DNA of 32,794 nucleotides from Ignavibacteriaceae bacterium (GCA_013388515.1 JACAFC010000197.1:1-32794), one strand, 5' to 3'. Shown: positions 3,933 to 17,250, counted from the stretch's first letter. Notes: generated from the letters alone by a model not told the origin. Program-made: numbers and translations.

Positions 3933-5168
3933 CTAAATCTCTTCCAAAAAATTTAAATCAGTTCCAAAAGTTTCCTTCAAGTTGTATAATGCAATAAGTG
4001 CTATCACTATACACAATATTCCAACAATCAGAGCAGAGTTAATCATTCCAAGAGAATGACGAAGAGCATCAAAAGCCAAAGTAATAGGAACAACTGAGCC
4101 GCGAATAAAATTGGGCACAGTAGTAGTAACTGTTGATCTTAAATTCGTACCAAATTGTTCTGATGCAGTAGTTACAAAAACAGCCCAATAGCCAATTGAA
4201 AATCCTAGTATAACACAAAGAGTATAGAAAAGCGTTAGAGAGAGCCCATAAACAAATAAGTAAACAAGAATGAAAATACTTGTTAGAATTATAAATATTC
4301 CAATCACTTTCCTTCTGCTTTTCATTAGCTGACTTAAAAAGCCGCTAGCAAAATCGCCAAAAATTAATCCTAAGTATGTAAACATTATCGATTTACCCGC
4401 AACAATTGGTTCAGTAACACCAATCACTTTTCCGAATTCTGGTGAGAATGTAACAAGCACACCTACTACGTACCAAATAGGTAAACCGATAAGTATGCAG
4501 TAAGCATATCTTAAAAATCTATCTTTTGATGTGAAGAGAGAAAGAAACTTTCCTCGTCCAACATTTGCAGTTTTTAAGGAATTGAACATTCCGGATTCAT
4601 ACATTTTAATTCGCATAACTAAAAGAATTAAACCTAAAACCCCGCCAATAATGTATGCAGTTTGCCAGCTAAATAAATCACCAACAATTGCAGCGCCAAT
4701 TGCACCGCTAACGCCAATCGTTGCGACAATTGCAGTACCATAACCGCGAGTTTCTTTTGTCATTACTTCGCTTACAAGAGTGATTGCAGCGCCGAGTTCA
4801 CCAGCGAGTCCAACTCCGGCAACAAATCTTAAAATCGCATACATATCCACCGAAGTAACAAAAGCATTTGCAAAGTTTGCAACAGAGTAAAGAAATATTG
4901 AACCGAACAAAACTGAAAGACGTCCCTTTTTATCACCCCAAATTCCCCAAATAATTCCGCCGATAAGCATTCCCGCCATTTGCATGTTTAGGAGAAATAC
5001 TCCAACTTTAATTAACTCATCTCCCTTGATTCCAAGGTCAGTTAAACTTGGTACACGCACAATACCAAAAAGAATTAGGTCATAAATATCCACGAAGTAA
5101 CCCAGCGCGGAAACTAAGACAGTTGTATTGAAAAGATGTTTTATTAGACTTGTGTTTTTGCTTTGCAT
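3933..5168 (-). CDS. MFS transporter, metabolite:H+ symporter-like
   Basis: A 411-residue inner-membrane protein with about 12 hydrophobic segments. The MFS motif A is seen in the first cytoplasmic loop as GIWGDKKGRLSVL (about 75-87). RFVAGVGLAGELGAAITLVSE follows in the next helices and resembles the metabolite:H+ symporter branch (ProP/ShiA/citrate-type carriers). N- and C-terminal halves are each complete, so the gene looks intact. The substrate cannot be assigned. It is convergent to the isoprenoid genes and lies just outside the left end of the genomic island. The ATG has no recognisable Shine-Dalgarno site. Confidence 0.85.
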   Translation of the reverse strand: MQSKNTSLIKHLFNTTVLVSALGYFVDIYDLILFGIVRVPSLTDLGIKGDELIKVGVFLLNMQMAGMLIGGIIWGIWGDKKGRLSVLFGSIFLYSVANFANAFVTSVDMYAILRFVAGVGLAGELGAAITLVSEVMTKETRGYGTAIVATIGVSGAIGAAIVGDLFSWQTAYIIGGVLGLILLVMRIKMYESGMFNSLKTANVGRGKFLSLFTSKDRFLRYAYCILIGLPIWYVVGVLVTFSPEFGKVIGVTEPIVAGKSIMFTYLGLIFGDFASGFLSQLMKSRRKVIGIFIILTSIFILVYLFVYGLSLTLFYTLCVILGFSIGYWAVFVTTASEQFGTNLRSTVTTTVPNFIRGSVVPITLAFDALRHSLGMINSALIVGILCIVIALIALYNLKETFGTDLNFLEEI

Positions 5169-5274: not shown

Positions 5275-5308
5275 GTGCACCCTGGGGGACTCGAACCCCC
5301 GACCAATA
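5275..5308. repeat. Left island boundary: 34-bp copy of the tRNA-Lys 3' part (att-like)
   Basis: This stretch is identical over 34 bp to 17177-17210, covering the tRNA 3' acceptor strand, T arm and variable region. Identity stops abruptly on both sides (A versus T to the left, AAG versus GAT to the right). There is no anticodon arm, D arm or 5' acceptor strand here, so it is not a tRNA gene. Orientation matches the intact tRNA, as expected for the far end of an element integrated into the tRNA 3' end. Confidence 0.85.
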
Positions 5309-5340
5309 AAGTTATAATAATCTTTAAATATTAACGCTAA

Positions 5341-5578
5341 GGTGGTGTCTATTATTTTTCATTCTTCATAAGTGAGATTGTACAGTTTGTAAACCATCCC
5401 TCACACACTCCTTGCCTTATCCAATCGGTTTTTTACTAACTCGGCAACGGACCAGTAAACTTCTCCGCCAGTGGCGGACAGGTTTCTGTTCAGCTTCGGT
5501 TAAGTCGAGTGCATCAAAGATGATGTCGTCTAATGCTTTTCTATCCGGCAGTGGATATAGCTCTTTTAAGTTTATTTA
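5341..5578 (-). pseudogene. Decayed DNA methyltransferase C-terminal tail, copy A
   Basis: On the minus strand, 5578-5483 reads KELYPLPDRKALDDIIFDAL then DLTEAEQK. After a 19-bp palindrome (5464-5482), 5463-5401 reads EVYWSVAELVKNRLDKARSV and stops. Removing the 19 bp joins the two pieces in frame, giving a C-terminus of the kind I recall from Eco57I-like or type IIG methyltransferases (DDIIFDAL ... ELVKNRL-KA-SV). After the stop, 5397 onward reads MVYKLYNLTYEE, a stop, then KIIDT, which resembles another methyltransferase tail. No catalytic domain remains. Methyltransferase origin is recalled family knowledge; the frames and stops are direct. Confidence 0.6.
5464..5482. repeat. 19-bp palindromic element interrupting the methyltransferase relic
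   Basis: TCCGCCAGTGGCGGACAGG contains the near-perfect palindrome TCCGCC-AGT-GGCGGA. Its length is not a multiple of three, and it separates two fragments that are otherwise contiguous in one reading frame, so it behaves as a small insertion that broke the gene. Confidence 0.6.
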
Positions 5579-5635
5579 TTTTTTCTGAATTTAAACTTTA
5601 AAGTTGAGTTTCTCTGAATAATTCCTCACGAAAAA

Positions 5636-6073
5636 TTATGGTGTTTTATAAAAGGGTAATGTTAGAGGTGGAACATTCATTCTTGAAGTAGTTTGATTAA
5701 CGAATTCTCTTAAATATGGCCAAGTATTCAAGTGAAGACTAATGTTTTTATAAACATCAAAAAAATCTTCTGTTAAAGTTTCTTTTGAATAGAGTTTTAC
5801 TAAAAAGGTAACTTCTAACTGAAAAAACCTGGTTTTAGATTGCGGTTTCCGAGCATCTATCTGATACTTTTGAAAAACAAATACGACCCCTTCTTCTTTA
5901 ACCTTATAATCAGCTTCATCCTTTATTTGTATGTTTAGTTCTGTTGGTGGAGTTATCTCGACGTTTAAAAAAGTTCTTGATTCTTTTAATGAAATACTAA
6001 TAAGATCTAAACCTTGTAAAATTTTTTTATAATCTTCTGGAGATATTTTTGGTTTTTTAACTTCTTTATTCAT
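5636..6073 (-). CDS. SecB-like chaperone of a toxin-antitoxin-chaperone (TAC) module
   Basis: The 145-residue protein has a beta-rich body and ends with WPYLREFVNQTTSR then MNVPPLTLPF (118-141). This matches the SecB C-terminal helix and following loop (E. coli [23 protein letters not shown]). Length is near that of SecB (about 150). SecB-like proteins placed third after a toxin and antitoxin are known from TAC systems (M. tuberculosis HigBA-Rv1957, with HicAB and MqsRA variants), where the chaperone folds and protects the antitoxin. The start is 2 bp after the antitoxin stop, so it is co-translated with it. An ordinary export SecB is unlikely given the genomic-island, toxin-linked setting. 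Confidence is good for the SecB fold and moderate for the TAC role. Confidence 0.75.
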   Translation of the reverse strand: MNKEVKKPKISPEDYKKILQGLDLISISLKESRTFLNVEITPPTELNIQIKDEADYKVKEEGVVFVFQKYQIDARKPQSKTRFFQLEVTFLVKLYSKETLTEDFFDVYKNISLHLNTWPYLREFVNQTTSRMNVPPLTLPFYKTP

Positions 6074-6075
6074 AA

Positions 6076-6633
6076 TTAACCAGCTTTTGAATAGTTAGCG
6101 TACACATTATCTTTTTTCTCCCCAACAATAAAATGAAGATTTGGGGAGCTAAAATCCTTATAGATATTTTTTTGTTGAATCTCATATTCAACTTTTTTCA
6201 TCTCTGTGAGCACTTGCTCAAATTTGCTACAATAAGTTTCAGTAATTTCTTCAAATGATGAAAAAGATATACCTTTAGTAATTATATATTGCACAAATTG
6301 ATTTAAACTTATCCCATTTTTATTAGCATTCCGCACCAGTTCTTTATGTAATTCCTTTGGTACCCTAACCAGAAATTTACCGCTAAATTCGTCTTCTTTT
6401 TGTTCTTGCGGTTCTGGGATAGGAATTCCTTTTTGTAACATCCTTGCAAAATTTTCTTCCTTTATAATCTCTAGGTTTTGAATTGCTTCTTCTATAGTTT
6501 CTCCATCAGAAATGAAAGCATTTCTGCCTAAAAATGGTATACAGGCAGAATAGCCACCGCCTTCATCATCAGGAATTTTATTAATTTCTATTGGATAATT
6601 AAGGGCGAGATAATATTTAAGATCCTTTTGCAC
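6076..6633 (-). CDS. hicB: HicB-like antitoxin with C-terminal extension (putative chaperone-addiction segment)
   Basis: Residues 1-75 form the HicB partial RNase-H-like domain: GGGYSACIPFLGRNAFISDG at 25-44, then ETIEEAIQNL and GIPIPEP at 69-75. Residues 85-121 are a ribbon-helix-helix DNA-binding domain (FLVRVPKELHKELVRNANK then GISLNQFVQYI). The protein continues to residue 185, about 60 residues past that domain; ordinary HicB proteins end near it. In TAC systems an extra C-terminal segment (ChAD) makes the antitoxin depend on its SecB-like chaperone, which is encoded next here, so the tail is a candidate ChAD. The start is GTG with AAGGAG seven bases upstream, inside the end of hicA. It should bind HicA and repress the shared promoter. 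Confidence 0.8.
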   Translation of the reverse strand: MQKDLKYYLALNYPIEINKIPDDEGGGYSACIPFLGRNAFISDGETIEEAIQNLEIIKEENFARMLQKGIPIPEPQEQKEDEFSGKFLVRVPKELHKELVRNANKNGISLNQFVQYIITKGISFSSFEEITETYCSKFEQVLTEMKKVEYEIQQKNIYKDFSSPNLHFIVGEKKDNVYANYSKAG

Positions 6634-6636
6634 AAC

Positions 6637-6924
6637 TTACTCCTTGATTAACCTTATTGCTTCACAAAGCATTCGCATATAAAAAAATTTAATTCTTTTA
6701 CCACCTGTTGTCGGAATAGTAAGCATTCCTTCTGTTCCATATTTTTCAGGATATTCCTTAAACTTTTCGTGCCAAATTCTGTAATTATGAGAACCTCTCG
6801 TATCACCAAATGACCAGGAATCAGGAAAAAAATGATTTAAAATTGACTCTAAATCATCTCTAGGAATTTCTTGTTTGTAATTTGGATTACAAAATTTCTC
6901 AAGTCTCTTTTCAATTCTAGACAT
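6637..6924 (-). CDS. hicA: HicA-like mRNA interferase toxin
   Basis: This 95-residue protein has the HicA pattern: a glycine then the catalytic-type His in TRGSHNYRIWH (42-52), then MLTIPTTGGKRIKFFYMRML (66-85) in place of the family VTIP-H-GKEIKKGTLRSIL. HicA toxins adopt a double-stranded-RNA-binding fold and cleave mRNA and tmRNA. It is longer than the classic 58-80 residues, with an N-terminal extension (1-25). It is first in a three-gene operon with HicB (3-bp gap) and the SecB-like chaperone. A palindrome-containing promoter lies just upstream. The His needed for activity is present, so it is probably a working toxin. Confidence 0.75.
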   Translation of the reverse strand: MSRIEKRLEKFCNPNYKQEIPRDDLESILNHFFPDSWSFGDTRGSHNYRIWHEKFKEYPEKYGTEGMLTIPTTGGKRIKFFYMRMLCEAIRLIKE

Positions 6925-7086: not shown

Positions 7087-7158
7087 TCACACACTCCTTG
7101 CTTTATCCAAGCGGTTTTTTACTAACTCGGCAACGGACCAGTCGTCTTCTTTATTGTC
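7087..7158 (-). pseudogene. Decayed methyltransferase C-terminal tail, copy B
   Basis: Minus-strand 7158-7087 reads DNKEDDWSVAELVKNRLDKA then RSV and a stop, nearly identical in DNA and peptide to the terminal part of copy A (5463-5401). It is cut off upstream by the 52-bp GGCGTCTCTGCG repeat. No start codon or further domain is present. It lies on the other side of the TAC module from copy A. Confidence 0.6.
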
Positions 7159-7208
7159 CTGGCGTCTCTGCGTAAAATTATTTTTCTTGCAAAGCCGCAA
7201 AGACGCTA
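7157..7208. repeat. 52-bp imperfect palindromic repeat (GGCGTCTCTGCG family), copy 1
   Basis: It matches 13407-13458 at 47 of 52 positions, with no gaps. GCGTCTCTGCG near one end pairs with CGCAAAGACGC near the other with one mismatch, so it can form a hairpin. Repeats of this wording (lower-copy REP-like elements) are scattered in many bacterial genomes. Here it interrupts the run of methyltransferase relics. Confidence 0.65.
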
Positions 7209-7217
7209 TATTTTTTT

Positions 7218-7372
7218 TCAAATTTCAAATCTTTCATACTCTTCTCTGCTTATTATTCGCTCAATTTCCGGGTCTATTATTTTCACTTCCTCGTATGTGA
7301 GGTTGTAGAGTTTGTAAACCATTCCTCAATCACTCCTCACTTTATCCAAGTGTTTTTTACTAACTCGTAAAT
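7218..7372 (-). pseudogene. Decayed methyltransferase tail, copy C (with a 34-codon open frame)
   Basis: From 7372 the minus strand shows the ELVKN segment, one base short, then a damaged LDK-R-S segment ending in TGA. Then ATG at 7322 opens a 34-residue frame, MVYKLYNLTYEEVKIIDPEI then ERIISREEYERFEI, to a stop at 7218. Copy A has the same junction (stop, one glycine codon, ATG GTT TAC AAA), so A and C are duplicates of one ancestral segment. The 34-residue peptide resembles the last residues of Eco57I-like methyltransferases and is unlikely to be a gene on its own. Confidence 0.55.
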
Positions 7373-7431: not shown

Positions 7432-9645
7432 TTAATTACTCATCATCATATTATAATGCTCAATATGTCCAGTGATTTCAAAAATTTTCTTGAATACAAT
7501 TTTAAATTTGTCCATTTGTTCATTAGTAATAGATACATTATAATCATCTATAATCTCGTGTGAACCAGCATTAACCCAAGCGAACAAACTTTTACATATT
7601 AATTGCTCTTCTTTTTCAAATTTTTCAATCAATTCGTGTTCGTTTATATTGGCAAGAAACTTAAAGTAAAACTCTATAATCCTACGCATTGAATTTTGAA
7701 GTGAAATACAATCACTTGCATTACGCTTAACATCATCCCATAAAAGTTGGTAACTGGTTTTTATAGGACAAGTTTCATATTTATCAATGAAACTAATATT
7801 AAAATTTTTCCTAACAATAAAATAGATAGTATCACTCCGATTATTGTAACAAGATTCCCTGCTTGAAATAAAAGTTATTTCTTTAAAGAAATATGCATTA
7901 TGTGTAAAAATGAAAACTTGTTTAATTGTGCCTTCGTTATTTCTAACATTATCTAAAGTCTTTCTTATTAACATTGAGACAATGAATAAAACATCTGAAT
8001 CAAAACTTGATACTGGGTCATCTATAACAAGCACCTTATCCTGATTTATATTTTCTTCTGGATTTTCAACACCGTATACAAAATGATAGAAATACAAGAA
8101 CACTAAAAAGTTTCTTTCACCTTCGCTTAATGTTTTTTTGGCATCTGAGCCATCATTCCGAATTACTTGATAATGTTTTTCATCTTCCGAAGCTTTTAGC
8201 TTAAAACCCGTAAAACCAAAATTTTCCAATATCTTATTTATTGCATCAACGGTTGGTTTTACGCTTTTTATTTGCTTCTCTAATTCCCCGATTTCTTTCG
8301 TTGTATCTGTAATATTTTGTTCTTTTTGCTGTATTTGCTGAGATATATTTTTAATTGCTTTTTCTATATTATTATTCTCTTTTACATAATTAACTACATC
8401 ATTTTTTAATAATTCAAAAATAAATCTCCATATTTCATTATTTAAAATTTGCTTTTCACTTTCTTTATTATCAATCAACCTGTTATGCTCTTTTATATTT
8501 TCATCAATTTCAGTTAGAATTACATTTATTTCTTCGACCACGTTTGAGTATGGTTTAATTTCTATTTTCTCACTTGGGTTATTTTGTTTTTTCACAAGTA
8601 ACTGTTTATTCTGATTGATTATTCCATCGATTATATTGTGTTTATCCCTAATAATAGATTTCTTTTCATCAATGTATTTATTTGATAGCAAAAGTAATTC
8701 TGAAAAATATTCTTCTACCTTTTTTGCTAAATCAGAATAATTTTTAACATAGTTATTTAACTCGCTAAGTTTTTTTTGATAAGTCTCGTCAAAATACTCT
8801 TCCAATTTTTTTCGGAAATCTTCGGATGTTTTTTGCTGACAGAAAGGACAAATATAATTGCCATCTTCATCAATATTTTGATCATAATATTCTTTACCTT
8901 GTTTTACCCAATCGTGATTATGCAATTTTTCAATCATCCTGGCTATATCAATATCTTTCTTACCAACGATTGATAATTTCAGAATGCCTTGATTATCTTC
9001 AATTGATTTAATCTCTTCTAATGTATTATCATCTAAAAAAATTAGTTCATTTATTTTTGAAACATCACTGCCATAGAGTAAATCATATTTCTCTTTAAGT
9101 TTTATTCTATATAATAATGCTGAAGAATTCGAATTTTGAGCTAATATCTCATTAGCAAATTTTTCTTTGCTTCCTTTATATCCAGTAAAAAACAAATCAA
9201 AATCATTTTGCAAATCCAAATAACCTTTTTGCCAGCAAGTTTCTTTAAATTCTTTAAATAAGTCAGTTTGTTCTAGTTCTTTTTCCGCCTTTGTTCCGTT
9301 TAAACTTGTTAATTCTTTCTTTAGTCTATCTAAATCACTCTTTTTGTTTATTATCTCTTCTTCAATCTCTTTTGCTCCCTTACCAATTGTGTAAATTCCA
9401 CTAAGTGAATCTTTAGCATAAAAATAGTCTCTTACAAAATCTTCATTGTAAATGATAGTTTTTAATTTGTCATTCCCATACCATTCAACATTACAATAAT
9501 TATATGCATCTGGATTTGCTAAAACTCTAGTTATAGTGGTTTTACCTGAACCATTAGCCCCATAGAAAAAATTGATTTTTCTTAGTTCTTCTAAATTTAC
9601 TGCGTTTTCAAATGGTGTAGTATGAAGTTTTATACTATTTATCAA
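7432..9645 (-). CDS. AAA_13 ATPase with PrrC/RloC-like anticodon-nuclease C-terminus
   Basis: The 737-residue protein has an ABC/SMC-type split ATPase: Walker A GANGSGKTT at 29-37, signature LSEGE at 506-510, Walker B VLVIDDPVSSFDS at 538-550, and switch His in FTHN near 580-583. Between them is a long coiled coil with one CPFC at 266-269, like the zinc hook of RloC. The C-terminus has Arg654-x-x-x-Glu658 and His696 (MRRIIEFYF ... NAGSHEI), matching in order and similar spacing the Arg-Glu-His triad of the PrrC anticodon nuclease (R320, E324, H356). It probably senses DNA damage or phage attack and cleaves a tRNA. The start is TTG, 14 bp after the methyltransferase stop, with GAGG five bases upstream. 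Third gene of the defence operon. The ATPase call is firm; nuclease activity is inferred. Confidence 0.82.
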   Translation of the reverse strand: MINSIKLHTTPFENAVNLEELRKINFFYGANGSGKTTITRVLANPDAYNYCNVEWYGNDKLKTIIYNEDFVRDYFYAKDSLSGIYTIGKGAKEIEEEIINKKSDLDRLKKELTSLNGTKAEKELEQTDLFKEFKETCWQKGYLDLQNDFDLFFTGYKGSKEKFANEILAQNSNSSALLYRIKLKEKYDLLYGSDVSKINELIFLDDNTLEEIKSIEDNQGILKLSIVGKKDIDIARMIEKLHNHDWVKQGKEYYDQNIDEDGNYICPFCQQKTSEDFRKKLEEYFDETYQKKLSELNNYVKNYSDLAKKVEEYFSELLLLSNKYIDEKKSIIRDKHNIIDGIINQNKQLLVKKQNNPSEKIEIKPYSNVVEEINVILTEIDENIKEHNRLIDNKESEKQILNNEIWRFIFELLKNDVVNYVKENNNIEKAIKNISQQIQQKEQNITDTTKEIGELEKQIKSVKPTVDAINKILENFGFTGFKLKASEDEKHYQVIRNDGSDAKKTLSEGERNFLVFLYFYHFVYGVENPEENINQDKVLVIDDPVSSFDSDVLFIVSMLIRKTLDNVRNNEGTIKQVFIFTHNAYFFKEITFISSRESCYNNRSDTIYFIVRKNFNISFIDKYETCPIKTSYQLLWDDVKRNASDCISLQNSMRRIIEFYFKFLANINEHELIEKFEKEEQLICKSLFAWVNAGSHEIIDDYNVSITNEQMDKFKIVFKKIFEITGHIEHYNMMMSN

Positions 9646-9659
9646 ATTAACCTCATTGT

Positions 9660-12600
9660 TTATTTTTTCCCCATATACATTTCTTCCACCATCTCGTCCA
9701 ACTCTTTTTGTATTTCTGATAAATTATTTTCGGCTTCTATTTCTTTAATTTTCCCTTCAAACTTTTGCTTTTGGTTATTATAAGCTCTCTCAAATATATT
9801 TTCAAATTGTTTTAGCTGGTCAGGTGTTGGTATAATAATCGGCAAGAGTCTAGCATCGTTTATTTGAAACGTTTGTGTGTTTTTAATAAAAGAAAATACA
9901 TATTCACTTACAAATGTAGAATTTAAAAGACAAACAAAATAATATTCTGGATATTCATTGTAATCCAAAGAAAATAAACTCATACTTTTTACATCGTGTA
10001 TCCCATTTATCTTAATTCTACATTTTATATTTAACGTATGAATATCACTCCAGCAAAAACCTTCACGGAAATAGAACTGAGGATTTCGGACAACAGGCAT
10101 CCCTTCGCCCTTTTTACCAGAGTTTTCTTTTAAAAATTTCACATTCTCTCTACTCCAGTCTATATAGTACGGTGTAGGGGCATACCAGCGGTTACCGTCT
10201 TTATCGCCTTTATCATACGGAACAAAAGTTTTTGTTCCTTTTATTCCATTTAGTTTCTCATCTTCTGTTAGTTTATCTAAATCTGCAATTTCTTCTTTAC
10301 TTACAATACGATAAAGCCAGCCTTGTCCAAAAACATCTCTTCCATACTTTTCTTTTAAGTCATCAAAGAGTTTTCTAATTTCTTTTTCTGAAAGATTTTC
10401 TAAAAATGTTTGAGCGTCTTGCTTTGTTTTTATGTGTTGTTTTTTACAAAACTCCGTAGCCAAAAGTAATTTCTCGGGTCTTTGCTTCTTTACATTATCT
10501 GCCCATTTGGTTTCTTCTAATACTCCAACATATTTACCATTATTAGCTGTAGCTAAACCTTGTCCACCTTCTGTAATCAAACCCAGCAAAGTTATATCAC
10601 CAGGTCTTAGGTTTTTACGATATTCATCTAACTTTCTTTTGTTTTTTTCAATGTTTTTGCTGGTGGAGATTAAATCCCACCATTTATGTAGTAATTCATT
10701 TACTGTTTTACCTAACTTTTCATAAATTTTTATATTCACCGTAGTTGGAATAAAAAATACTTTATTTGGGGCAGCAGAAAAAACAATTTGCTTTGATTTG
10801 TATCTATCAGGATTAGATAAATTTGTTTTGCCATCTAAAAAAATAGTGTTATGAGATTCATCAACTATTTGCTTTTGAACAATAGCAACACAAGTATCAA
10901 CCATAGCCGATTCGAAAGGATTTGCGGTATCAAACAGTTGGAGGATTTTATTTCTTAAAAGGAGTTCTCTTAAATTCTTTTTGGTTTGTATAGTCCAGAA
11001 AGTTTTTGAAGAAATATAAGCAAGAATACCATTTTCTTTGAGTAGATTTATTCCTTTGAAGTAAAAGTGGTTGTAGGTATCATCAGCAAAGCCATATTGT
11101 TGCTCAAGTTGTTTTTTATCTTGTGAATCTACTCCTTTTGTTGAAATATACGGCGGATTACCAATCACAATATCAAATCCTGAAGATTCGGATACTTTTA
11201 TTCCAAACATCCATTCTGGGTCAAACCAATCGGAGTGTGTGTTTTGGTCGAAAGGATCCCAGCTTGTAATTTTTTCTGCAATGTCGTTTTGAAAACCATT
11301 TTGTTTTAATGCAACTTTAAGTTGTTCTCTTAATTTTTTCTCTTTCTTTTGAAGTTCAACTTTTTCTTTTCTGCTGTTGGTGTAAAATATTTCTTCTCTA
11401 ACTTCAAATAATTTCTTTTCAAGTGATTCAATTTCGCTTGAAGTTAAACTCATTTGCGTTGGTCTGCTCAATCCAATTAAAGTATTTGCCGCAACAAATT
11501 TTGTTTCAAGGTTTGGTAAGGCACGAATATCACGATTTGGTTTTGTGTCATCAATTTCTTGCTCTACCAGTAACGAAATAAAAAATCTAAGTTTACTTAT
11601 CTGTATTGCAATTTCCTGAATATCAACGCCATAAATACAATTTTCAATCAAGCCAAGTTTTCTTATATAATCAACTGACTTATTCAATAAAGATTTTTCT
11701 GTTTCATCTTTTATTTCTGGAGGAACTCTTTCAAGCAATTTCTTTTTCCAGATTTTATTATCGGGGTCAAGTTTATGGAGAGCAAGCACAAGTTTATGCA
11801 AAATTCCCATTGGAAAAGCACCGCTACCACAAGCTGGATCAAGAATTTTTATATTCTCAATTGCTTCAATTAATTTTATAGTAGTTTGTTCATCAAAAGG
11901 ATTTTCATCGGAAGCATAATCGAAAAGTAAACGAAGGTTATCTTCAGATATTTTATCATTATTATTAAGAGAAGTTTTTAAATGTTCAATCAAAGAGTCA
12001 TTTACCATATACTCAACAATTTCCCTTGGCGTATAATAACTTCCGGTTGCTTTTCTTGCTGTTTCAGAAGTTTCTGGCACATAAGCAGCCAATAAGTTTT
12101 CAAATACTTTACCTAATAGTTCTGGGTCTAATGCAACATCCTGGTCAACAGGTGTGTTTTCATCAATTGTAAAGTTGTATCGTTTAAGTATGGTTAAAAG
12201 CCCGGTAACTTTTTTATTCTTACCTTTGTCAAGATATTTTGATAAGTCGACATCATTTTCTTTATCGAGGAAAAATATTTCATCTGGAACTTTTAATTTG
12301 GTTTCATTCTTAGGATTATCAGAAAAACAGTCAATTCTTATTACTTCAGTACCTATTTTTTTATCTAGGCATTCAAACAAACCACCATTTAAGAATGGCA
12401 CATTTTCAAATTGTTCTATAAATAAATTTTTGTCTTTTATAAATCTGCTATAACGATAATATCCTTGTTGAAGGTACGCATCGCTTAAGTATCCTTTTTT
12501 CTCAGCTTCTTCAACAAATATTCTGCTTTCCTTATCATCTTTTTTCATTTTTGTATTAAGCGTAGCAAAGAATAAATTTTGAAGTATTGCTTTATAGTAT

Positions 12601-13337
12601 GTGCTGCCAGTATTGTCTTTGTAATATATGATTTTGTCAATAAAGGATTTTTCAAATAGTGTAGAAGGAACAAGTTCTTTTTCCTTCATAAACCAGATGA
12701 AAATTATTCGTGTAATTAAACGAATAAGACTTTTAGCATTTCTCTTTTCTCTCTCTTTTTCTTCATCATCAGGAAATTCTACTTTATCCATTGCCCAGAA
12801 ATACCAGTTAGCAATTTCCTGATAGAATTGTTTGGTTACTTTTTCTACACTGAATGCATCAATGATTTTATCGAGCGAGGTAAAATCAGCCTCGGTAAAT
12901 TGTTTTATGAATGTTTTGTTAGTTTGGTCTTTGTTTACAAAGTAAGTAAATCTTCTAAAGTTGCTCCAGTCTCTTTTGCCGGTTGAAAGGGGAATATCAT
13001 AAATCAATGAAAAGCGAAAATCACCTTTGTCATCATAGAAAATGAAAAAGCCGGCAATATATTTTTGAGCATCTTTAAGAAATTTTTTGCCAAGTGTGTA
13101 TTGTGCTTTTTTGCCAGAGCGTTCAGAGAGTGGTTTGTTTACTTTAGCAGTTACAACTACAATTAGATCATCATTATTAACCTTAAATTCACCAAATAAA
13201 GATGATTCAGAAAACTGAACATCATTTAATTGGGTTAGTTTTTCTTCAACCAGTCGGAAAGTTCTGGTTTTAGCTCTCAGAAGAGAGTGCAGATTATAAT
13301 CGTTGAATTGGTGAATAAGGTTTTCAATTTCTTTCAT
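9660..13337 (-). CDS. Eco57I-like N6-adenine DNA methyltransferase (type IIG/BREX-PglX-like architecture)
   Basis: Counting from ATG at 13337 the protein has 1225 residues. Motifs run in gamma-class order: GSYYTPREIVEYMV (about 432-445), SAM-binding ILDPACGSGAF (498-508), IYGVDIQEIAIQISKLR (568-584), and catalytic NPPY (727-730). A C-terminal target-recognition region includes VVRNPQFYF. The N-terminal region (to about 190) has the pattern of large Eco57I-like enzymes (ERSGKKAQYTLGK, FRFSLIYDI) but no nuclease motif I can defend. It should methylate adenine in a specific site and so mark self DNA. A longer reading from TTG at 13382 would add 15 residues, but these lie in repeat-derived sequence, so the ATG is preferred. 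Stop is 14 bp before the ATPase start. Nuclease and motor functions are probably supplied by the helicase gene upstream. Confidence 0.88.
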   Translation of the reverse strand: MKEIENLIHQFNDYNLHSLLRAKTRTFRLVEEKLTQLNDVQFSESSLFGEFKVNNDDLIVVVTAKVNKPLSERSGKKAQYTLGKKFLKDAQKYIAGFFIFYDDKGDFRFSLIYDIPLSTGKRDWSNFRRFTYFVNKDQTNKTFIKQFTEADFTSLDKIIDAFSVEKVTKQFYQEIANWYFWAMDKVEFPDDEEKEREKRNAKSLIRLITRIIFIWFMKEKELVPSTLFEKSFIDKIIYYKDNTGSTYYKAILQNLFFATLNTKMKKDDKESRIFVEEAEKKGYLSDAYLQQGYYRYSRFIKDKNLFIEQFENVPFLNGGLFECLDKKIGTEVIRIDCFSDNPKNETKLKVPDEIFFLDKENDVDLSKYLDKGKNKKVTGLLTILKRYNFTIDENTPVDQDVALDPELLGKVFENLLAAYVPETSETARKATGSYYTPREIVEYMVNDSLIEHLKTSLNNNDKISEDNLRLLFDYASDENPFDEQTTIKLIEAIENIKILDPACGSGAFPMGILHKLVLALHKLDPDNKIWKKKLLERVPPEIKDETEKSLLNKSVDYIRKLGLIENCIYGVDIQEIAIQISKLRFFISLLVEQEIDDTKPNRDIRALPNLETKFVAANTLIGLSRPTQMSLTSSEIESLEKKLFEVREEIFYTNSRKEKVELQKKEKKLREQLKVALKQNGFQNDIAEKITSWDPFDQNTHSDWFDPEWMFGIKVSESSGFDIVIGNPPYISTKGVDSQDKKQLEQQYGFADDTYNHFYFKGINLLKENGILAYISSKTFWTIQTKKNLRELLLRNKILQLFDTANPFESAMVDTCVAIVQKQIVDESHNTIFLDGKTNLSNPDRYKSKQIVFSAAPNKVFFIPTTVNIKIYEKLGKTVNELLHKWWDLISTSKNIEKNKRKLDEYRKNLRPGDITLLGLITEGGQGLATANNGKYVGVLEETKWADNVKKQRPEKLLLATEFCKKQHIKTKQDAQTFLENLSEKEIRKLFDDLKEKYGRDVFGQGWLYRIVSKEEIADLDKLTEDEKLNGIKGTKTFVPYDKGDKDGNRWYAPTPYYIDWSRENVKFLKENSGKKGEGMPVVRNPQFYFREGFCWSDIHTLNIKCRIKINGIHDVKSMSLFSLDYNEYPEYYFVCLLNSTFVSEYVFSFIKNTQTFQINDARLLPIIIPTPDQLKQFENIFERAYNNQKQKFEGKIKEIEAENNLSEIQKELDEMVEEMYMGKK

Positions 13338-13406
13338 AGTTAAATCCCATTTTAAGTTTCTCGCTAAGTCGCTAAGTGACAAAGACGCAGTTTTAATTCT
13401 TTGCGT

Positions 13407-13458
13407 TCCTGGCGTCTCTGCGTGAAATTCTTTTTCTCGCTAAGCCGCAAAGGCGCTA
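13407..13458. repeat. 52-bp imperfect palindromic repeat (GGCGTCTCTGCG family), copy 2
   Basis: It matches 7157-7208 at 47 of 52 positions. It fills the gap between helicase and methyltransferase genes, and its edge supplies the helicase stop codon (TAG, 13456-13458). A related fragment with TCGCTAAGTCGCTAAG and AAAGACGCA lies at about 13359-13388 and overlaps the possible TTG start of the methyltransferase. Confidence 0.65.
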
Positions 13459-16400
13459 AATCATTTTGTTAAGTATTGCTATAATAATTTCTTTTTCCTC
13501 TTTACCAAGTTTTCTTTTTTCTTTTTCAAGATAATCTTCACCTAATTCTTCTTTGATTGATGTTATTTCTTCTATCGCTTCCTTCAATTCTGTATTGTTT
13601 AATTTAAGATTTGCAATTCTTCTTATTGTATAATCCGGTAAAGTACCGTAATCAATTAAATCTTCTTTTAAGGTTCTTATAAATTTTTTAAGACTTAACA
13701 GTTTTTCATTTTGATTTACCTTGAGCAGATAGTCAATATTTGTTAATGCTTTCTTTTCATTACTCTGAGCAGATGTTGGCGTATAAATTTTTTCTTTAGA
13801 TTCTTTGGCTGATTGATACATTTTCCAAAAATCTTCATCAATACTTAAACCTTTTTCATTAGGTTCGCACTTAATTTTATCGAGCACAAGTTCAAGTGAA
13901 GAATCATTAACTTCAGTTTTGCCGTCATACGTTTTTACAGTTTTTAAGTACATTCGGTTTTTCATAAAACAAACAATCATCTCATTTTCATTAGATTGTT
14001 TTGTTACCTTAATTCGTTTCGGCATTTCTGTCAGCAATTTTTCTAATTCGGGATGCTTGCTCTTAATTTTAAGGTAAAGATTAAGCACTTTGGTATAAAA
14101 ACTTTCCTCTTCACCTTCTTCAGGATTTTGTAACAATTTCTGAAACAGTTTTGCTGGTGATGGTTCTTCTTCAGGATCAAATATTTTAGAATCCTCACCA
14201 AGAGTATTATGAATCATAAACATTTTATTCTGTGCAATTTCTCTTGATCTTACGAGTTGTGCACCCTTTTCTGTCGGAAAGAAATTTACTATGTAAAGTT
14301 TTTCAAAAACTTTTTTGCTTATACGATTTATTCTTCCCAATCTCTGAATGACACGAACAGGATTCCAGGGAATATCATAATTGATGACCATTCCGGCACG
14401 ATTAAGGTTAAATCCTTCACTTAGTTTATCGGTAGAGAGAAGAATATCATAATCATCATCTTGTTTTTTTACTGAAGCATCAAAGTTTCTATTGATTTCA
14501 GAAATTTTCGACTCCGGAAGAGAGCCGGTAACTACAAGAGTTCTTTTTCTGATTTCCGGTTTTAATTCTTCTATTTTATCACTCACATATTTGACTGTGT
14601 CAGCATATTCAGAAAAGATTACAATTTTTCTTTTAGGTTCGCCGGAATTGGAGGGTTTGCTTAATTCTTCCTGCAAGTGTTTTAACAAGCATTCTGTCTT
14701 GGGATCTTGTTCAATCAGTTGAAACTTTTCAAGTTTTCTTAGAACTTCATCAAACAATCTTATATCAGACTTTATATCCTCAATAAACCCTTTACCATCT
14801 TTAAATTTTTCTATTTTATATCTTTTATGTTTTTTTGGATATGCACCAGCTGTAATCTGCTTTTCATAATCCTTTAATGCTTCTTCAATTTCGTCCGGTG
14901 ATTTTTCCACAATACTTTCAAGCAATTCCCTGTCTAGAATGTACTCCCCTTTTAGTGGGTCACCTTTGCCTGTTTTCTCAATAAACTCTAATACAATTTT
15001 ATTAATTCTCTTAAAATTTTTAATACTCCGCTCAAACGCACCAAATGAACTTTCAAATCTTTTAACTATCAATCTTCGCATAATATCGAACAAGTTGCGC
15101 TGTTGCAATAATTCACGGTTCTTTTCGAAATCTTTCTCCTCTTCATCAAACAGATTCTGACCGTGGCCTGTTTCATAAATAAATGGAAGATAAATCGCAC
15201 CCTTAAATAGTCCACCTTCATTCGGGTCCTCAAAATATTTTGCAATAATTTCATCATAAAATGAGGATTGCTCTGAAGTCAGTTCATAAAACCATTCTTT
15301 GGGGTCATCAACAACTGAAAGCTCTTTAACTTCGTTTTTATAATTTGGATTTTTAAGAAGGTCTAATCTGTTTCTTCTTATAGTAATCGGTTCGATGACA
15401 TCTCTTATTTGTTTTGCGAGCTGGTGTGTTCTTCTTTTAATTTTGCTCAGATCAATTGAATCCTCGCCGAAGAAAGTTCTGTAAAGTTGTTTGGCAGTTT
15501 TGGCTTTTTTTGCGTCTCTTGAGTTATAATTTTTTCTTATAAATGCAAGTTTATCAAATAAATAATTAATTGCTCTGAATACAAAAATTAAATCACTACC
15601 AAGAGTTATGCTTGATTTTTTAGGGGTTATAAATAAATTCAGTAAAGCTAAAACATCTTCGGGTTTGTTATTAAAAGGCGTAGCAGTAAGAAGAATTACT
15701 TTTTTATCTCTGCAAATATTCTTTAATAATTCATATCCTTTAGTATCCTGATTTCTGAATCTATGGGCTTCATCAACAATAACAACTTCAATATCATCAT
15801 TTGCTTTTACGAATTCTAATGTTTTCTCAAGATCGCCAAGTGAACGAACTTCCCAGTCATACAGCTGAAACTCATTCAGATATTTTTTCCAGCCTTCAGT
15901 CATATTATCGTCACCGATCAATCCTGGTGGACAAATAACTACTCCTCTTGATCTAAGATTTTTTGCAACCATACAAGCAATAATTGTTTTACCGAGTCCA
16001 ACAACATCAGCAATAAGAACTCCATTATGATTTTCTATTACTGACAACGCCATTTCTACGGCATCAATTTGATATCGGTAAAGTTTATATCCTTTATCAG
16101 TCAATAATTTTTTAATTGCTGTAGAAATTTTTTTGTGCTGAAAAGAATCTAGATAAGTTTTTAATACTAAAGTGTAAGCTTCAAACGGTGATATTTTTTT
16201 TATCAGAGTTTCATTTTCAATTAATTCTATCAGTCGCTTTTTAATATCATCTGCTTCAGTAATTTTAACACCATCTTTCCAGAGATTATCAAAATATTCT
16301 TCTGCATCTTCAAAACCATAATCAGAAATTTCAACATTAAACTCACTTTGAGTTGTAAGCCCTGCTTTAGTAAGATTGCTGCTTCCGGTTATAAAAAGTT

Positions 16401-16842
16401 TATTCTTACCAACTTGATCTTCTTCAAGTTTGAATAAATATAATTTAGAGTGATTAGGCTTAAATGTTTTTCTTATTACTAATCTATCGTCAGTGATCAG
16501 TTGCAGAAAAAAGTCTGCTTGTTCATAGAATTCTTTGATATCAAATAAATCTGTATTAATTGATTTTTTTACAGAATCAAGAAAATTATTTATTTTTTCT
16601 TCATCAGTCAGCTTTTCATTCTCAGCATACTCAACCAAACTGAAATTAAACTTATCAACATCCAATCCTACAAGAATTTTTAGTATGAAATTATTCTTTT
16701 GCTTTAGTCCTTCATATAATTCTCTGATTCCGGAAAAATAGAAGAATCCAATAAGGAATTTTAATTCTTCGCTTTTGCTTATTAGTTGATTTAATCTTTT
16801 TTTAAGATCTTTAGTTGATTGGTTGGTGATGAAGTTACTCAT
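13456..16842 (-). CDS. PLD-family nuclease fused to SNF2/HepA-type helicase
   Basis: The 1128-residue protein begins with a phospholipase-D-like nuclease domain: HSKLYLF at 131-137, GSSNLT at 153-158 and Glu167 (HxK plus GSSN and E of the PLDc_2 type). Then comes a SNF2 superfamily-2 helicase: motif I DVVGLGKTI (279-287), DEAH (357-360), LTATPFNN (385-392), then in the second RecA lobe VIFSEYADT (741-749), STDKLSEGFNL (803-813) and QRLGRINR (833-840). A charged C-terminal region follows. Such fusions occur in restriction-like defence loci, where the motor translocates on DNA and the PLD domain can cut. It is first in the operon with methyltransferase and ATPase. The stop codon sits in a 52-bp repeat, so the C-terminus may have been altered. 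The ATG has no obvious Shine-Dalgarno site. Confidence 0.88.
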   Translation of the reverse strand: MSNFITNQSTKDLKKRLNQLISKSEELKFLIGFFYFSGIRELYEGLKQKNNFILKILVGLDVDKFNFSLVEYAENEKLTDEEKINNFLDSVKKSINTDLFDIKEFYEQADFFLQLITDDRLVIRKTFKPNHSKLYLFKLEEDQVGKNKLFITGSSNLTKAGLTTQSEFNVEISDYGFEDAEEYFDNLWKDGVKITEADDIKKRLIELIENETLIKKISPFEAYTLVLKTYLDSFQHKKISTAIKKLLTDKGYKLYRYQIDAVEMALSVIENHNGVLIADVVGLGKTIIACMVAKNLRSRGVVICPPGLIGDDNMTEGWKKYLNEFQLYDWEVRSLGDLEKTLEFVKANDDIEVVIVDEAHRFRNQDTKGYELLKNICRDKKVILLTATPFNNKPEDVLALLNLFITPKKSSITLGSDLIFVFRAINYLFDKLAFIRKNYNSRDAKKAKTAKQLYRTFFGEDSIDLSKIKRRTHQLAKQIRDVIEPITIRRNRLDLLKNPNYKNEVKELSVVDDPKEWFYELTSEQSSFYDEIIAKYFEDPNEGGLFKGAIYLPFIYETGHGQNLFDEEEKDFEKNRELLQQRNLFDIMRRLIVKRFESSFGAFERSIKNFKRINKIVLEFIEKTGKGDPLKGEYILDRELLESIVEKSPDEIEEALKDYEKQITAGAYPKKHKRYKIEKFKDGKGFIEDIKSDIRLFDEVLRKLEKFQLIEQDPKTECLLKHLQEELSKPSNSGEPKRKIVIFSEYADTVKYVSDKIEELKPEIRKRTLVVTGSLPESKISEINRNFDASVKKQDDDYDILLSTDKLSEGFNLNRAGMVINYDIPWNPVRVIQRLGRINRISKKVFEKLYIVNFFPTEKGAQLVRSREIAQNKMFMIHNTLGEDSKIFDPEEEPSPAKLFQKLLQNPEEGEEESFYTKVLNLYLKIKSKHPELEKLLTEMPKRIKVTKQSNENEMIVCFMKNRMYLKTVKTYDGKTEVNDSSLELVLDKIKCEPNEKGLSIDEDFWKMYQSAKESKEKIYTPTSAQSNEKKALTNIDYLLKVNQNEKLLSLKKFIRTLKEDLIDYGTLPDYTIRRIANLKLNNTELKEAIEEITSIKEELGEDYLEKEKRKLGKEEKEIIIAILNKMI

Positions 16843-17176: not shown

Positions 17177-17210
17177 GTGCACCCTGGGGGACTCGAACCC
17201 CCGACCAATA
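17177..17210. repeat. Right island boundary: 34-bp att-like repeat inside the tRNA-Lys gene
   Basis: Exact partner of 5275-5308. It lies in the intact tRNA gene from one base past its 3' end through the acceptor strand, T arm and variable region. With its partner it delimits about 11.9 kb. Confidence 0.85.
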
Positions 17211-17250
17211 GATTAAGAGTCTACTGCTCTACCAATTGAGCTAAGGGTGC
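17178..17250 (-). tRNA. tRNA-Lys (anticodon CTT)
   Basis: The minus strand folds as a standard 73-base tRNA. The acceptor stem is GCACCCT pairing with AGGGTGC, followed by discriminator A. The D arm contains AGCTCAATTGGTAGAGC, the anticodon stem is GTAGA/TCTAT around loop CTCTTAA, and the T arm is GGGGG-TTCGAGT-CCCCC. Anticodon CTT reads AAG (Lys). CCA is not encoded. The 3' part is the target site of the adjoining genomic island and remains intact, so the tRNA should be functional. Confidence 0.95.

Follow-up and report, generated by a model that had tools for sequence, protein, structure and literature searches.

Three genes for a helicase-nuclease, a methylase and an RloC-type ATPase

We analysed a 32,794-nt stretch of DNA from an Ignavibacteriaceae bacterium (GCA_013388515.1, JACAFC010000197.1:1-32794; hereafter the window), in which three large open reading frames (ORFs) lie head-to-tail on the minus strand and are predicted to encode the two subunits of a restriction-modification (R-M) enzyme and an RloC-type ATPase. 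A preliminary description of this DNA had claimed three co-directional large genes separated by gaps of about 118 and 14 bp. The ORFs at 13456-16842, 9660-13382 and 7432-9645 bear this out: the second gap measures 14 nt, and the first 73 nt to a TTG start or ~121 nt, near the claimed 118, to an ATG at 13334. Homologues of the methylase align from this ATG (residue 17) and not from the upstream TTG, and the ATG is probably the true start. Homologues of the locus proteins in other genomes are full length and conserved, and the ORFs are therefore not a product of chance. The genes and their main parts are as follows.

13456-16842, minus strand: HEL, PLD nuclease and SNF2/SF2 translocase, the predicted restriction subunit (Pfam and invariant motifs)
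9660-13382, minus strand: MT, predicted Eco57I-type N6-adenine methyltransferase (MTase) with C-terminal specificity domain (Pfam Eco57I, E 1.6e-31)
12783-13334, minus strand: N-terminal block of MT (to amino acid 200), PD-(D/E)XK-like; it tracks HEL, has a fold match and has lost the ExK glutamate
9663-11159, minus strand: exchanged specificity half of MT, the target-recognition domain (TRD), from motif IV (amino acid 742) to the end; marked by an identity break
7432-9645, minus strand: RloC-type ABC ATPase with zinc hook and predicted C-terminal anticodon-nuclease (ACNase)/HEPN-type domain (AAA_13, PADLOC PDC-S06, signature)
7558-7686, minus strand: catalytic triad region R654-E658-H696 of the RloC-type protein, invariant in 16 homologues

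HEL has 1128 amino acids and matches the Pfam families PLDc_2, RE_NgoFVII, ResIII, SNF2 and Helicase_C. Its GLGKT, DEAH and QRLGRINR motifs are invariant in an alignment of 14 homologues, as are the PLD residues H131, K133, N156 and E167. MT has 1240 amino acids with DPACGSG at 515 and NPPY at 742 intact, and these motif columns are conserved among its homologues; the adenine methylase previously suggested to mark self DNA thus stands as a predicted N6-MTase of the Eco57I family. Among the PADLOC models, which had been proposed as a check, PDC-S06 matched the third gene and Type IIG models were the top matches for MT; the matches to HmaA, DrmD and DrmMI were partial.

The published definition of RloC is a protein of 658-897 amino acids whose ABC domain resembles that of PrrC and is interrupted by a coiled coil with a CXXC zinc hook (Davidov and Kaufmann, PMC2610378). 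Its C-terminus carries Arg-X3-Glu-X36-52-His, the His often preceded by Ser, and rare start codons have been reported for it (PMC2610378). The third protein of the window has 737 amino acids, matches AAA_13 (Pfam) across its whole length (E 7e-160), carries the hook CPFC at 266-269 (C266/C269) and ends in R654-X3-E658-X37-H696 with S695 before the histidine. An alignment of 16 homologues shows no variation at C266, C269, R654, E658, S695 or H696, and the UUG start of the gene is in line with the rare codons reported for RloC. Judged by its sequence, the protein is an RloC on both the hook and the triad, and the earlier suggestion of an anticodon-nuclease-like ATPase can be sharpened to a complete published RloC signature. 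An AlphaFold model (mean pLDDT, the predicted local distance difference test score, 81) contains the coiled coil; over residues 1-638 it aligns to the heads of Rad50/SMC proteins (best match 9bi4_D, Z 16.0, 346 residues, 4.3 A), and an extra helical domain is present at residues 631-736. A phmmer search of the PDB with this protein found nothing significant, and with its profile the matches were weak and confined to ABC heads and coiled coils. Several homologues of RloC from a single genus, g93 (L108, L110 and L111; L and G numbers label the comparison loci and genomes used in our searches) are truncated at ~610-640 amino acids and have no R-E-H nuclease region, which no downstream frame restores.

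A recurrent core with exchangeable parts

Pairwise comparison resolves MT into a mosaic of three blocks. With the near backbones L084 and L085, MT shares 70-88% identity in its middle and core and 17-24% past a break at amino acids 720-745, at motif IV; with the distant L092 it shares 16-20% at the N-terminus and 69-71% past the break. This pattern is what exchange of a TRD would be expected to look like. The N-terminal block instead follows the helicase. Across 20-21 loci the pairwise identities of HEL and of MT amino acids 1-200 are closely correlated (r=0.96); the coefficient is 0.69-0.70 for amino acids 205-410 and 0.25 for the TRD, and the drop along MT is largely stepwise beyond the N-terminal block. 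None of 2000 permutations reached the N-terminal value, and in loci with genes between HEL and MT the correlation was 0.98 for the N-terminal block versus 0.67. Because it co-varies with HEL, we consider the N-terminal block a probable HEL docking domain. Its predicted fold was closest to the N-terminal region of DrdV, a Type IIG enzyme, with a middling score (Z 7.3, 112 residues, 3.5 A), and other PD-(D/E)XK nucleases were also among the structural matches; the DrdV match came from a second structural aligner, Foldseek having returned no convincing match for this region. The ExK glutamate is absent from the window protein, which has a threonine in its place, and from its clade, and the domain is therefore probably a dead nuclease, with cutting left to the PLD domain of HEL.

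At E<=1e-80, HEL is found in 15 of the 395 genomes of the phylum, and no relative of it was detected in the viral contigs scanned. An adenine-type methylase adjoins HEL homologues in ~29 loci from the family, the order, the phylum and plasmids, among them Thermus and Allomeiothermus plasmids, and by these comparisons HEL and MT form a recurrent core. In several further loci the contig ends. The third slot beside the pair holds different genes in different loci: GajA, alone or with a GajB-like helicase (L025, L028, L037), KAP/PifA-like NTPases (L094, L095), SIR2-like proteins (L086, L131), HerA (L096), Fic (L132) and a TIR/SEFIR protein (L120). We take HEL-MT to be the core of an R-M system whose back-up effectors can be exchanged, with RloC as one of them, a reading that agrees with reports of backup effectors (PMC12839542) and of a linkage between HEPN domains and R-M (PMC3710099). 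A search of a collection of genome contigs with the RloC-type protein returned one related locus only, though an informative one. Among the relatives of this protein, the one in L045 (58% identity, Goldiibacteriota) is flanked by the hsdS and hsdR genes of a Type I locus, that in L098 (48%) lies directly 3' of a Type IIG enzyme and 5' of a DUF3644 gene, and those in L099 and L140 lie after HsdM-HsdS and after a Type I set, respectively. G188, considered as a second genome with all three genes, was rejected: a HEL and an RloC fragment lie there on separate contigs, but no MT was found in the genome.

Other arrangements appear among the comparison loci. Two plasmid loci (L118 from Allomeiothermus and L119 from Thermus) have a related layout of MT (~745-790 amino acids), an extra protein of ~330-410 amino acids that may be a separate specificity subunit, and HEL. 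L026 has a DUF559 gene between HEL and MT (4134-4496) and, at 9695-12481 on the minus strand, a methionine synthase (MetH) ORF with DUF559 (a Vsr-like nuclease) between its two B12-binding domains, an odd insertion.

Behind RloC, and again behind a set of probable toxin-antitoxin-chaperone (TAC) genes described below, lie orphan 3' ends of MTase genes.

7221-7322, minus strand: orphan MTase 3' tail, type A, just behind RloC; 85% over 34 amino acids to the end of the L130 MT, E 5e-12
7090-7164, minus strand: orphan MTase 3' tail, type B, short and weak; 52-65% to the ends of the L035 and L029 MTs
5404-5587, minus strand: orphan MTase 3' tails, type B, behind the TAC genes; L035/L029 tails, E ~1e-7
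5308-5397, minus strand: degraded type A tail behind the TAC genes; 65-74% identity

The HEL neighbouring the L130 MT is ~82% identical to that of the window, and in the whole genome type A tails occur in these two places only. The order MT, cargo, duplicate MTase 3' end recurs in L027, L031, L033, L086, L092, L098 and L130. The duplicate begins no more than ~41 nt from the cargo stop in the six loci measured (L031 excluded) and is 79-91% identical in DNA to the native MT end in five cases. Around 25 loci we found 11 tail clusters in 97.6 kb of downstream sequence on the same strand, none downstream on the opposite strand and none on either strand in 92.5 kb upstream; the queries were tails drawn from the surveyed loci themselves, and the control regions were scanned with identical queries. 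These data suggest that the tails are repeats through which cargo is inserted by homologous recombination, effectors being swapped behind MT; alternatively, they could be the remains of tandem MTase genes. L092 combines the TRD type of the window with a DUF3800 cargo; a given TRD type is thus not tied to a given cargo, and the two exchanges look independent.

A possible reading, which we put forward tentatively and as a whole, is that effectors are loaded without an integrase, each cargo lying between the MT stop and a duplicate MTase 3' end that serves as recombination repeat, that RloC reached its place by this route, its source being Type I or Type IIG loci, and that a separate exchange, at motif IV, replaces the specificity halves. 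If so, a strain would change both its recognition sequence and its suicide weapon through homologous recombination alone.

In L098 (5204-8720), an RloC homologue and a DUF3644 gene stand behind the Type IIG enzyme with an orphan MTase tail after each, an arrangement that would stack two predicted RNases behind one R-M enzyme. DUF3644 overlaps a HEPN family (PMC3710099).

The tRNA-Lys island and its downstream genes

All genes of the locus lie in an island of ~11.9 kb that also carries three smaller genes downstream of RloC. These genes, the tRNA-Lys repeats that bound the island and the MTase-tail relics were absent from the preliminary description.

5275-5308, plus strand: left border, 34-nt copy of the tRNA-Lys 3' end, 100% direct repeat
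17177-17250, minus strand: tRNA-Lys(CTT), right border (ARAGORN; Rfam tRNA, 75.7 bits)
6637-6924, minus strand: tentative HicA-like toxin ORF, 95 amino acids, from its position before hicB and a GSH motif seen by eye
6076-6633, minus strand: HicB antitoxin with a C-terminal extension after amino acid 118 (Pfam HicB, E 1.4e-15)
5636-6073, minus strand: SecB-like chaperone (PADLOC PD-T4-9_C, E 2.3e-7; Pfam SecB, E 0.011)

The 34-nt direct repeats are spaced 11,902 bp apart, and no integrase was recognised among the ORFs between them. The flanks hold ordinary chromosomal genes (for alanyl-tRNA synthetase, OsmC, an MFS transporter and others), and a Por_Secre_tail protein, also encoded in the window, hints at a host from the Bacteroidota. 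In G079, the only congeneric genome compared, an unrelated 7.6-kb element (L044:6099-13792) occupies the same tRNA-Lys with the same MFS and OsmC neighbours; it encodes a tyrosine integrase (PF00589, E 1.7e-33) and has a 52-nt direct repeat. That repeat lies over the 5' portion of the tRNA and the window repeat over its 3' end, so the crossover points differ. Since a different element sits in the same gene, comparison of the two genomes marks this tRNA-Lys as an integration hotspot. The island of the window may rely on an integrase acting in trans, and related integrases are encoded elsewhere in the genome.

HicAB-SecB modules of the TAC kind are known (PMC5105189), and the three small genes probably form one. 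The HicA-like ORF had no match by Pfam or by plasmid tblastn, and the Pfam match of the SecB-like protein is below cut-off yet nearly full length. A promoter scan showed no enrichment over shuffled sequences, and terminators were fewer than in shuffles. A dispersed short repeat, GCGTCTCTGCGTGAAA...CGCAAAG, occurs in the HEL-MT gap (13397-13467 and 13357-13376) and again downstream of RloC (7147-7217), the gap and downstream copies being 83% identical over 71 nt.

A proposed guarded restriction enzyme and its relation to known systems

We favour, with moderate confidence, a model in which HEL and MT are a two-subunit ATP-dependent R-M enzyme guarded by RloC, the guard coupling being the weaker half of the proposal. 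An R-M-like defence operon close to the split Type I/ISP layout had been claimed before, and domains and motifs support it; in the broad sense of a translocase-nuclease joined to a sequence-specific methylase, these and the TRD exchange point to an ATP-dependent R-M enzyme. From the domains, intact motifs, HEL-MT pairing, TRD exchange, RloC signature and island borders read in the sequence, we infer the following scenario. MT, carrying the TRD, would methylate one adenine motif on self DNA. HEL would form a complex with it by docking on its N-terminal domain, a dead PD-(D/E)XK nuclease inherited from a Type IIG ancestor, and would translocate from unmethylated sites so that its PLD domain could cut. 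RloC would be inactive until DNA ends accumulate or restriction is blocked; once fired it would cut tRNA anticodon loops, translation would stop, and the system as a whole would protect against phage. In favour of the model, the nearest relatives of this RloC sit in R-M loci (L045, L098 and L099), Acinetobacter RloC is activated by double-strand breaks (PMC3874168), and PrrC guards EcoprrI (PMC12707154).

Several observations weigh against this model. The canonical HxK(x4)D aspartate is missing from the PLD site of HEL, three HEL homologues (L036, L038 and L088) show no neighbouring MT, and gene adjacency or linkage may account in part for the correlation between HEL and the MT N-terminus. Co-occurrence of the families, suggested earlier as a check, held repeatedly for the helicase-methylase pair; the exact trio was found in no other genome among 80 of the family, 164 of the order and 395 of the phylum. 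Some RloC relatives, moreover, stand alone without R-M neighbours, so coupling to R-M is not required for the RloC family. The solitary relatives also favour an alternative, in our view rather unlikely, in which HEL and MT are an R-M enzyme and RloC an independent passenger, a break-sensing suicide gene in the cargo slot behind MT. The third genes are interchangeable and mutually unrelated, Acinetobacter RloC answers breaks even in R-M-deficient cells (PMC3874168), and the MTase-tail scar directly behind RloC suggests insertion. However, RloC relatives recur next to R-M genes of several types, and the 14-nt gap to MT suggests co-expression.

It is improbable that MT alone is a Type IIG enzyme and HEL a separate anti-DNA effector sharing its operon: the PADLOC matches and the PD-(D/E)XK-like fold of MT would suit such an arrangement, but MT lacks the ExK glutamate, its N-terminal block follows HEL in divergence and the pairing of HEL with MT is widely conserved. 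We give very little credence to the earlier suggestion of membership in Hma, or in a DUF499-centred BREX-related system. The composition of helicase, methylase and ATPase, the partial HmaA match and an N-terminal HKD domain shared with Type-2 BREX-related helicases are in its favour; however, the Hma ATPase (HmaC) is a DUF499 protein (PMC12839542), that of the locus is AAA_13/RloC, and DUF499 (PF04465) has no match in the locus or the genome, a control genome giving a match. The original Hma paper calls HmaB an m5C (5-methylcytosine) enzyme (PMC8565338). A reduced DISARM, to which a resemblance had also been noted, is equally implausible, since the partial matches of HEL to DrmD and of MT to DrmMI profiles fall far under the NCBIfam cut-offs (161 vs 610 bits) and the core genes for DrmA, DrmB and DrmC are absent among the island ORFs and in the window. 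BREX and Type I R-M were likewise set aside for lack of their core genes: in place of HsdM, HsdS and HsdR, MT is of the Eco57I type with its own TRD and HEL is a PLD-Snf2 protein. For PbeABCD/CxC-ABC, no DndE-family ORF was recognised in the island.

R-M systems with HKD helicases, RloC and the logic of a guard are already known. In the open-licence papers searched we found no description of RloC combined with HEL-MT, of the docking block or of tail-bracketed cargo behind R-M methylases. If our model of a guarded HEL-MT enzyme is correct, the guard principle of PrrC-EcoprrI would also apply to another class of restriction motor, and the locus makes it possible to ask whether breaks made by such a motor fire RloC. 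The N-terminal block of MT predicts a docking interface, and the orphan MTase tails offer a checkable mechanism for the grouping and replacement of defence genes, usually just called defence islands.

The individual parts have clear counterparts. The third protein shares with RloC (PMC2610378, PMC3874168) the ABC ATPase split by a CXXC zinc hook, the length of 737 amino acids, the R-X3-E-X37-S-H triad and the rare start codon, but is a predicted nuclease and sits behind a PLD-Snf2/Eco57I R-M pair. Like PrrC with EcoprrI (PMC12707154), it is a predicted tRNA-cutting enzyme tied to a restriction system, although PrrC, a shorter protein that has no zinc hook, guards an enzyme of Type IC. PbeABCD/CxC-ABC (PMC10853773) likewise places an HKD-SF2 helicase beside a zinc-hook ABC ATPase; the window differs in having no DndE or PT (phosphorothioate) genes and in the ACNase-type C-terminus of its ABC protein. 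Hma and the BREX-related Type-2 systems (PMC12839542) combine an HKD-Snf2 helicase, an N6-methylase and an ATPase, which here is RloC and not DUF499, and no DUF3780 was found. The downstream genes follow the HicAB-SecB TAC order (PMC5105189) of HicA-like, extended HicB and SecB-like, except that HicA is assigned from position and motif only. MT resembles Type IIG enzymes (DrdV, PADLOC REase_MTase_IIG) in its PD-(D/E)XK-like N-terminus, gamma-type methylase and C-terminal TRD, but has lost the nuclease glutamate and is linked to a PLD-Snf2 partner. Finally, Type ISP and Type I enzymes bring together the same translocase, nuclease, N6-methylase and specificity domain, which here are split between HEL and MT, with a PLD in place of an Mrr-type nuclease and no separate HsdS. 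By analogy, the locus would operate as a Type ISP or Type I enzyme divided between two proteins and guarded in the manner of PrrC.

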